Part shown: one piece after another, positions 296-2,652 of the stretch
Layout: each line of letters starts with the position of its first letter
Numbering within the stretch: the first letter of the stretch is position 1
Assembly: GCA_947374505.1 (NCBI GenBank)
Contig: CANCCE010000002.1
Coordinates: forward strand, 1 to 36,256
Source of the DNA: Comamonadaceae bacterium
GTDB taxonomy: Bacteria; Pseudomonadota; Gammaproteobacteria; Burkholderiales; Burkholderiaceae_C
Length of the DNA stretch: 36,256 nucleotides
Reading direction: 5' to 3'
Made by a program: the position numbers and the translations under genes
Notes under the pieces: generated by a model
What the model was told of the DNA's origin: nothing
Database searches by the model: none
Seen by the model: the letters and a program-made list of their open reading frames with translations, nothing else

Positions 296-1366
296 ATGAG
301 TTTGATTCCCGTCACCATCTTGACCGGCTTTCTGGGTTCCGGCAAAACCACTTTGCTCAAACGCGTGTTAACTGAAGCCCACGGTCAGAAAATTGCTGTC
401 ATTGAAAACGAGTTCGGTGAAGAAAACATCGACAACGAGATTTTGGTGAACGACACCAACGAGAACATCATTCAGATGAACAACGGTTGCATCTGCTGCT
501 CGATTCGTGAAGACTTGCGCGAAACGCTGCAACTGTTGGCCGCCAAAAAGCGCAAGGGACTGCTGACGTTTGACCGTGTCGTGATTGAAACCACGGGCTT
601 GGCTGATCCAGGTCCGGTGGCGCAGACTTTCTTCATGGACGAAGAAATTGCCGAGCAGTACCTGCTGGACTCGATCCTCACCTTGGTGGATGCCAAGCAC
701 GCCGCCACACAGCTCAACGACCGCCAGGAAGCCCGACGCCAAGTTGGTTTTGCCGATCAGATCTTCATCAGCAAGACCGATCTGGTGGAGGACAGCGAAG
801 TCAAAGCCCTGATGCGCCGCTTGACCCACATGAACCCCCGCGCTCCGCAACGTGCGGTGCATTTTGGTGAAGTCGCCATCGCCGATGTGTTTGACCTGCG
901 CGGCTTCAACCTGAATGCCAAACTCGATATTGATCCAGACTTTCTGAAGGAAGAGACTGATGCTCACGCCGGCCATGACCATGCACCAGGTGAGCATTGC
1001 GACCATCCTTCGCATGCCCATGATGCCGCTGATGGCCACGCCGGACACGGCCATCACCACCATCATGACGATGACGTGAAAAGCTTTGTATTCCGCTCAG
1101 ACCGCGCCTTCAGCCCGGCCAAACTAGAAGATTTCTTGGGTGCTGTGGTGAATATTTATGGCCCCCGCATGCTGCGCTACAAAGGCGTGCTGAACATGGA
1201 AGGCACCGATCGCAAAGTGATCTTTCAGGGCGTGCACCAGCTCATGGGCAGTGACCTTGGCCCCGCCTGGGCGGAAGGCGAAGTGAAGACCAGCAAGATG
1301 GTTTTTATCGGCATTGACCTGCCGAAAGATATTTTTTTGCAAGGCCTTGAGCAGTGCCTGGTTTGA
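296..1366 (+). CDS. CobW/COG0523-family GTPase, probable zinc metallochaperone
   Basis: This is a G3E P-loop GTPase of the CobW/YjiA/ZagA group, whose members hand metal (usually zinc) to client proteins at the cost of GTP. Visible motifs are the P-loop GFLGSGKT (residues 11-18), the metal-binding GCICC (Cys65, Cys67, Cys68), an ETTG Walker B-like element (98-101) and SKTD (159-162) as the guanine specificity motif. A His/Asp-rich linker at about 224-260 includes a run of five histidines. A CobW C-terminal domain fills about 262-356. The length of 356 residues is normal for the family. It lies just upstream of a DksA variant that has lost its zinc ligands. No convincing Zur box is visible upstream. 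The metal is inferred to be zinc and is not proven by sequence. Confidence 0.9.
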   Translation: MSLIPVTILTGFLGSGKTTLLKRVLTEAHGQKIAVIENEFGEENIDNEILVNDTNENIIQMNNGCICCSIREDLRETLQLLAAKKRKGLLTFDRVVIETTGLADPGPVAQTFFMDEEIAEQYLLDSILTLVDAKHAATQLNDRQEARRQVGFADQIFISKTDLVEDSEVKALMRRLTHMNPRAPQRAVHFGEVAIADVFDLRGFNLNAKLDIDPDFLKEETDAHAGHDHAPGEHCDHPSHAHDAADGHAGHGHHHHHDDDVKSFVFRSDRAFSPAKLEDFLGAVVNIYGPRMLRYKGVLNMEGTDRKVIFQGVHQLMGSDLGPAWAEGEVKTSKMVFIGIDLPKDIFLQGLEQCLV

Positions 1367-1575
1367 GTTAGGCTCTCCGCAAACTGCAAAAGCTTGCGGT
1401 TCACGCTGACTTGAGGCTGGAGGGCTCGATGTCCGTTTCTTTTTTACAACGTTTCGGTTTTATGGCGCCCGGCGCAGCTGATGCGCCGCTAAAATCGCGC
1501 GCCGAATGAATCACCAGGACTCCGGTTTTGAAAGCCGAGGGTCATCCACAGGCCACTGCCCAAAGGAGACAAGAC

Positions 1576-2652
1576 GTGAAAACCCCCGCCAAAAAGAGCA
1601 AGACGCCTGTGAAAGTGGCAGTCAAGACGGTCGCAAAAGTTGCAGCAAATAAGCCGATTAAGAAGACGCTGACGAAGCCGACCAAGCCGGTTGCGAAGAC
1701 TCCCAGCAAGGCGGTGGCGAAGCGGGTAGTGACTCCGGCAAAGGCTCAGCCCGTGGCCGCCAAGAAAGCCCTTCCCGTCAATAAATCGAAAACCAAAGAA
1801 GTTGATAAGAAAAAAATTGTAGCTAAATCGGTTATAAAGCCTGTTGCCAAGCCGGCCATCAAGTCGGCAGCCAAGCCGGTTGTTAAGCCAGCCGCCAAGC
1901 CAGTTCCGAAATCTCCGTCAATCTCTTCTGTCAAAGTTGCACCGCTGAGTGCAACCAAAGCAGCGTCCCTACCTACCAAGCCGGCGCAGGCTGCCCAGCC
2001 CGCCGCGCCTCCAGCTCCAAAGACCATGATCACGCCTCCACCCGCTCTCAAACCCGGACGCAGAAGTTCCGCCCGCACCGCAGCGATGTCGCCACCGCCA
2101 GCACCGATGGTGCCGACCCACGCGCCCGATGCAGCTAAAGCCAGCTACTCGACCATCACGGAACGCGTGATTTCGCCGCCACCGCATGTGGCCGCACGCA
2201 AAGACCCCAAGCTTGCCAACAATTGGAAGACCAAGGAAGCCAACGAGTTGACGGACGAAGAAGTCAAGGCCATGCCTGACAGCGAGTACATGAACGACAA
2301 GCAGCTGGCTTTTTTCCGCCACAAGCTGTCGATCCTGAAAAGTGAAATTCACGCCAGTGCTGGTCAAACCACCGAAAACTTACGTGAAGACACGGTTGTT
2401 GTGCCCGATCCAGCCGACCGCGCGACGATCGAAGAAGAGCACGCCCTGGAGTTGCGCACGCGTGACCGCGAACGCAAGTTGCTCAAAAAAATCGAGCAGT
2501 CGATTTCCCGCATTGACGCGGGCGACTACGGCTATTGCGATGAGACCGGTGAAGCCATTGGCGTCGGCCGTCTGATCGCCCGTCCTACTGCCAGCTTGTC
2601 GCTGGAAGCGCAACAGCGCCGTGAGCTGAAACAAAAATTGTTCGGTGACTAA
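1576..2652 (+). CDS. dksA: DksA-type RNA polymerase-binding regulator with a long Lys/Ala/Pro-rich N-terminal tail
   Basis: DksA binds the RNA polymerase secondary channel and, with ppGpp, adjusts transcription of rRNA and amino acid genes. The last ~150 residues match the family. They show the coiled-coil tip DPADRA (Asp278, Asp281, Ala283), a long helix with LRTRDRERKLLKKIE, and the former zinc-finger region. Only one of the four zinc-finger cysteines remains (Cys321 in YGYCDETG); the others are Thr, Ser and Ala. The first ~200 residues are low-complexity Lys/Ala/Pro sequence with repeats such as AAKPVVKPAAKP, like a histone H1 tail. I chose the GTG at 1576 because AAAGGAG lies 7 bases upstream. 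A TTG at 1528 would add 16 residues. E. coli DksA is 151 residues; this one is 358. Confidence 0.85.
   Translation: MKTPAKKSKTPVKVAVKTVAKVAANKPIKKTLTKPTKPVAKTPSKAVAKRVVTPAKAQPVAAKKALPVNKSKTKEVDKKKIVAKSVIKPVAKPAIKSAAKPVVKPAAKPVPKSPSISSVKVAPLSATKAASLPTKPAQAAQPAAPPAPKTMITPPPALKPGRRSSARTAAMSPPPAPMVPTHAPDAAKASYSTITERVISPPPHVAARKDPKLANNWKTKEANELTDEEVKAMPDSEYMNDKQLAFFRHKLSILKSEIHASAGQTTENLREDTVVVPDPADRATIEEEHALELRTRDRERKLLKKIEQSISRIDAGDYGYCDETGEAIGVGRLIARPTASLSLEAQQRRELKQKLFGD

Follow-up and report, generated by a model that had tools for sequence, protein, structure and literature searches.

The window analysed here, a stretch of 36,256 nucleotides from a Comamonadaceae bacterium, carries what is most probably the housekeeping dksA gene in a Polaromonas-like freshwater member of that family, whose product would regulate RNA polymerase through the secondary channel. 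The product begins with a lysine-rich tail of about 150 residues which, judged by comparison of related loci, is translated and evolves as protein, the lysines being its conserved element. On balance, sequence, structural model and analogy suggest that this disordered polycationic tail tethers DksA to polyanions near RNA polymerase, the nucleoid or granules.

Location of dksA and its translation start

As placed by an earlier sequence-only reading, dksA was found at positions 1576..2652 of the forward strand in the form of a single open frame of 358 codons (358 aa), which starts with the GTG at 1576 and ends with the stop codon at 2650-2652. A Shine-Dalgarno (SD) sequence, AAAGGAG (1562..1568, forward strand), lies 7 nt 5' of the GTG. 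The gene is flanked by mraZ-mraW-ftsL-ftsI and by a COG0523/CobW-type GTPase gene with a His-rich loop (296..1366, forward strand), which adjoins it on the 5' side and on the same strand and whose product scored 190 bits with PF02492 and 78.5 bits with CobW_C in a Pfam profile search. The closest loci belong to freshwater Comamonadaceae MAGs, with a DksA core 99 % identical, and Polaromonas comes next.

In the alignment of 35 dksA upstream regions the best conserved, near-universal block was AGGAGAC...GTGAAAGCC (AGGAGAC...GTGAAAgCC). The SD-GTG pattern was present in 64 of 81 loci, and most of the 80 family loci demonstrated one strong SD start exactly at the beginning of the tail. The sequence-only reading had taken the tail as part of the protein, and no supported start inside or after it was detected: the last 100 codons 5' of the DksA core contain no SD-supported start in the window, and only scattered relatives have one.

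Another block, MSVSFLQRFGF...LKSRAE* (tGTnTCnnTTnTnCAAC ... TAcAATCGCGCGCC), is situated at 1429..1509 (forward strand) in frame with dksA and is closed by the TGA at 1507-1509. Many relatives have an in-frame M[IFL]VSxLQ block upstream of dksA, and the block is frequently open and in frame with the gene among them. A longer DksA N-terminus beginning at the in-frame ATG further 5' (M[IF]VSILQ...) was rejected since the window has the TGA at 1507, locus L002 no longer possesses the ATG, and L015 and L066 carry the block in another reading frame. The block is more likely promoter DNA than coding sequence, the putative promoter having a GC-rich discriminator. The promoter-like −10 motif TAAAAT (1490..1495, forward strand) is followed by the GC-rich stretch CGCGCGCC, and TACAATCGCGCGCC or TAAAATCGCGCGCC is kept at the putative −10 region among Polaromonas-like relatives. 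The open in-frame block could lead gene callers to a too-long dksA start.

The DksA domain and its zinc finger

Residues 209-358 constitute a complete DksA, which scored 139 bits with the TIGR02420 dksA equivalog (cutoff 115.5) and matched PDB 1TJL with E = 4e-31. The coiled-coil domain DksA_N, PF21157, covers residues 243-313 (2302..2514, forward strand; 96 bits, cutoff 27) and is followed by a degenerate zinc-finger domain, PF01258 (2521..2625, forward strand; 37 bits, cutoff 24.9), with a single Cys codon at 2536-2538. Alignment to 1TJL placed the DxxDxA coiled-coil tip at residues 278-283 (2407..2424, forward strand), where DPADRA, invariant in 30 relatives, retains D278, D281 and A283, the counterparts of E. 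coli D71, D74 and A76. With E. coli numbering counted from the C114/C321 match, L302, K305 and R336 correspond to L95, K98 and R129 and are kept, and E. coli K139 is replaced by Gln; these four E. coli residues belong to the ppGpp site. A search with the AlphaFold2 model retrieved DksA structures and DksA2 only, the high rmsd of the alignment being due to the uncertain relative placement of the domains. Probed with PF01258, the host genome (an assembly 70 % complete) gave this one match and no second DksA; single matches were also found in some complete genomes of the family, e.g. G127 and G189, so the protein is probably the sole DksA of its host.

Exactly one zinc-ligand cysteine is kept, Cys321, equivalent to E. 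coli C114, and the other three positions are occupied by T, S and A. The sequence-only reading had counted one of four correctly, but its view of a lost zinc finger as a peculiarity of this gene or a partner of the tail did not hold up: of the four ligand positions a single one is Cys in 137/137 loci of the family and 60/60 loci from other families of the order, i.e. in all 197 sampled DksA orthologues, tailed or tail-less, and tails occur on C4 DksA as well. Going by this distribution, the one-Cys finger is the norm for the order and not a loss within the dksA of the window. In place of the four ligand Cys of a C4 zinc-finger DksA the protein has a C4-less globular domain of the DksA fold, matching 4IJJ in sequence and in the model, whose zinc-finger region is of low confidence. 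The ability of DksA to function without the C4 finger has been established for DksA2, RSP2654 and SMc00469 (PMC9239242).

DksA paralogues without the C4 motif, controlled by Zur and with COG0523 genes nearby, were described by Haas et al. 2009 (PMC2770081). In 129 of 135 family loci the gene immediately 5' of dksA, on the same strand, encodes a COG0523 metal-chaperone GTPase. Such a gene also adjoins dksA on the 5' side in approximately 25 of 60 loci from the other families of the order (a few of the matches being weak), and every one of these dksA genes was of the one-Cys type. No Zur-like palindrome was seen near cobW or dksA in positions 1-300 or 1367-1580.

Composition and conservation of the tail

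The sequence-only reading had described a Lys/Ala/Pro stretch before a normal DksA domain. This was confirmed, with all three DksA profiles above cutoff and 208 pre-core residues consisting of approximately 153 Lys-rich residues and a linker of 55. Together they contain 41 A, 38 K, 36 P, 24 V, 17 T and 17 S and have a net charge of about +40. The Lys/Ala/Pro-rich tail itself (residues 1-153; 1576..2034, forward strand) has a net charge of about +35 and is predicted to be disordered; in the AlphaFold2 model the pLDDT is below 50 across most of residues 7-196 and secondary structure is absent before residue 211. The conserved linker, PPPALKPGRRSSARTAA...HAPDAAKASYSTITERVISPPPHVAAR (residues 154-208; 2035..2199, forward strand), is of lower charge than the tail, and its A186 and K188 are invariant in 30 relatives. 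Immediately N-terminal of the DksA domain lies the family-specific motif KDPKLANNWK (residues 209-218; 2200..2229, forward strand), a short helix in the AlphaFold2 model, with K209, D210 and A214-K218 invariant in alignment A1. The motif is nearly invariant within the family, tail-less members included, and DksA proteins of other families can be aligned only from about core residue 8-18 on, downstream of it.

The best 100-aa window of the tail contains 29 Lys, which is tied for the highest density among 1417 stop-to-stop frames in a background sample of 436 kb from the host genome; one other frame equals it and the next has 18, so the Lys richness is not a matter of chance. The frame of equal density encodes a SWIB/MDM2-domain protein (L258:19372-19833, contig C12), which has an N-terminal H1-like tail of the KAAPAKK type and a weak HC2 match below cutoff. 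The proposed resemblance of the DksA tail to histone H1 was borne out in its Lys/Ala/Pro composition and, on the profile evidence, is one of composition only, since none of the Pfam models matched the tail even with E allowed up to 0.1. Membership of the tail in a known histone family (Hc1, HC2) was rejected on the same grounds, with no Hc1 match in the genome either.

Selection on the tail was estimated from close pairs of relatives. In 15 of them omega was 0.14-0.34 in the tail and 0.01-0.07 in the core, where one value was zero; in a 16th pair the tail dS was saturated. Pooled pN/pS rose from 0.035 in the core to 0.125 in the linker and 0.35 in the Lys-rich part. Lysine was kept in 85 % of Lys columns versus 55 % for other tail residues, a figure that the aligner may raise by favouring Lys; L055/L059, a pair aligned without gaps, kept Lys in 44 of 45 such columns. 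The length and order of the repeats drift fast. The conserved SD-GTG, the lack of an SD-supported internal start in the window and tail pN/pS and omega values well below 1 together argue for translation of the tail.

Distribution of tails among relatives

At least 60 Lys-rich residues were found in 72 of 80 loci in one set from the family and in 38 of 55 in another, so the tail that the sequence-only reading had wanted compared among relatives is widely shared there; its net charge across family loci varies from about +5 to +59. In Acidovorax MR-S7, Diaphorobacter aerolatus and Comamonas BIGb0124, all of which retain DPKLANNWK, the tail has been lost or disrupted, and it is short or absent in the close relatives L037, L054, L076, L070 and L148, in whose lineages it must therefore be dispensable. 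L037, L054 and L076, all Comamonadaceae, have an intact DksA core and a disrupted or missing tail frame, and they constitute natural tail-less controls.

Outside the family most genomes of the order are tail-less, with isolated tailed lineages (L168, L184, L186-187, L190, L199, L200, L207 and L229). In the wider-class sample, picked for long frames and over-representing tailed members, tails were present on C4, C2 and C1 DksA. The class-level relatives L220 and L221 have a C4 DksA with tails rich in Arg as well as in Lys, and L089, a C4 DksA of the same order from a small genome of 1.4 Mb, bears a tail of almost perfect KAVAKPAAK repeats. On a DksA core tree of 96 rows, at least 12 gains or losses separate tailed from tail-less proteins, a count that holds for the sampled rows only, given the short alignment, the many open forks and the over-sampling of tailed class members. 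By this tree, DksA tails came and went repeatedly. The occurrence of tails on C4, C2 and C1 DksA, together with these changes, indicates that tail and zinc state are independent.

Possible role of the tail

From its charge, predicted disorder, selected lysines and recurrence we infer that the tail binds polyanions, tethers DksA and thereby affects transcription. The repeated gain and loss of tails on DksA suggests that they probably hold the protein near DNA, RNA or polyphosphate. The tail of approximately 150 residues, attached via the conserved linker, would bind nucleoid DNA, nascent RNA and possibly polyphosphate in a sequence-nonspecific manner. Such tethering would raise the local concentration or residence time of DksA near RNA polymerase, or put DksA on the nucleoid or granules. 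The coiled coil and the ppGpp site would work in the way known from other DksA proteins, and the globular domain would be free of zinc. The short or absent tails of some close relatives, the fast drift of the repeats and the Gln in place of E. coli K139 count against the tether.

Polyphosphate is a serious second candidate ligand in view of the precedent of AlgP, which has a KPAA tail, sits at polyphosphate granules and requires the tail for granule spacing (PMC9239181). According to work cited in the same paper, the accumulation of polyphosphate in E. coli is under the control of DksA. That the tail binds mainly polyphosphate and couples DksA to starvation granules, from which it would be set free or where it would be sequestered with rising polyphosphate, is nevertheless rather unlikely, the tail composition fitting polyphosphate, DNA and RNA binding alike. 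It is similarly doubtful that a low-complexity expansion, nearly neutral, functionless in itself and tolerated on a free N-terminus, makes up the tail. Its fast-drifting length, its absence or extreme shortness in some relatives and a pN/pS of the Lys-rich part about 10 times that of the core would agree with such an origin, but this pN/pS is still well below 1, the lysines are selectively kept, as seen in L055/L059, and the same make-up recurs across unrelated lineages.

A processed variant of DksA observed in Xanthomonas (PMC5559785) would be in line with a tail that is cleaved off or bypassed by downstream initiation, leaving a standard DksA of some 150 residues as the active form. This is improbable, since Xanthomonas uses the first GTG (PMC5559785), no SD start is available within 100 codons 5' of the core and the tail shows selection at the amino-acid level. 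As to a tail linked to the loss of the zinc finger and replacing one of its functions, both features co-occur in the dksA of the window, but the distribution already contradicts the link and makes it scarcely credible: the 60 one-Cys orthologues from elsewhere in the order are mostly without a long tail, and many C4 DksA in the class bear long Lys tails.

DksA, a factor of the stringent response to starvation, is thought to work by diffusing into the secondary channel of RNA polymerase. Returning to the tether as the preferred explanation, a recurrent basic tail on what is apparently the only DksA of a family suggests an extra layer on top of this, which E. coli-based work could not reveal as E. 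coli DksA has no tail. As a tentative generalization, bacteria may repeatedly have made DksA nucleoid- or polyphosphate-tethered by means of H1-like tails, with control by location and polyanion level in addition to ppGpp.

Comparison with known systems

E. coli DksA (1TJL, 5VSW, 7KHI) has the tip residues, the fold and most ppGpp-site residues in common with the protein described here, but possesses four Cys, a zinc finger and K139 and no tail, in contrast to one Cys, a tail and Gln. DksA2 of Pseudomonas aeruginosa (4IJJ) and RSP2654 of Rhodobacter sphaeroides are likewise of DksA type without a C4 zinc finger, and 4IJJ shows the same CxETGEPIG...RPTA motif. DksA2 is, however, a tail-less zinc-starvation paralogue, whereas the protein of the window is apparently the only DksA.

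CarD of Myxococcus comes closest as a working analogue: it combines an RNA-polymerase-binding module with a basic disordered DNA-binding tail, for which the C-terminal region of histone H1 can substitute (PMC8156234). CarD differs in having an unrelated domain and a C-terminal tail with AT-hooks and an acidic stretch. Pseudomonas AlgP and PhaF also have a long disordered tail of the KPAA type, but there it is C-terminal and joined to a domain other than an RNA polymerase factor.

In the open-access literature searched for an earlier account of a Lys-rich DksA tail, only the start-site paper on Xanthomonas came up, and no description of such tails as a recurrent feature was found. Proteogenomics demonstrated that dksA of Xanthomonas euvesicatoria, previously annotated with 147 aa, has 256 codons and a GTG start and gives a processed form too (PMC5559785). 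Truncated annotations of this kind may affect many dksA genes. The Xanthomonas extension, of approximately 109 aa, was assigned no role in that paper, and its likeness to the present protein rests on the N-terminal extension and the GTG start, not on sequence. An N-terminally extended, GTG-started DksA is thus already known and the missing C4 finger is ordinary; the interesting part is the Lys-rich tail.
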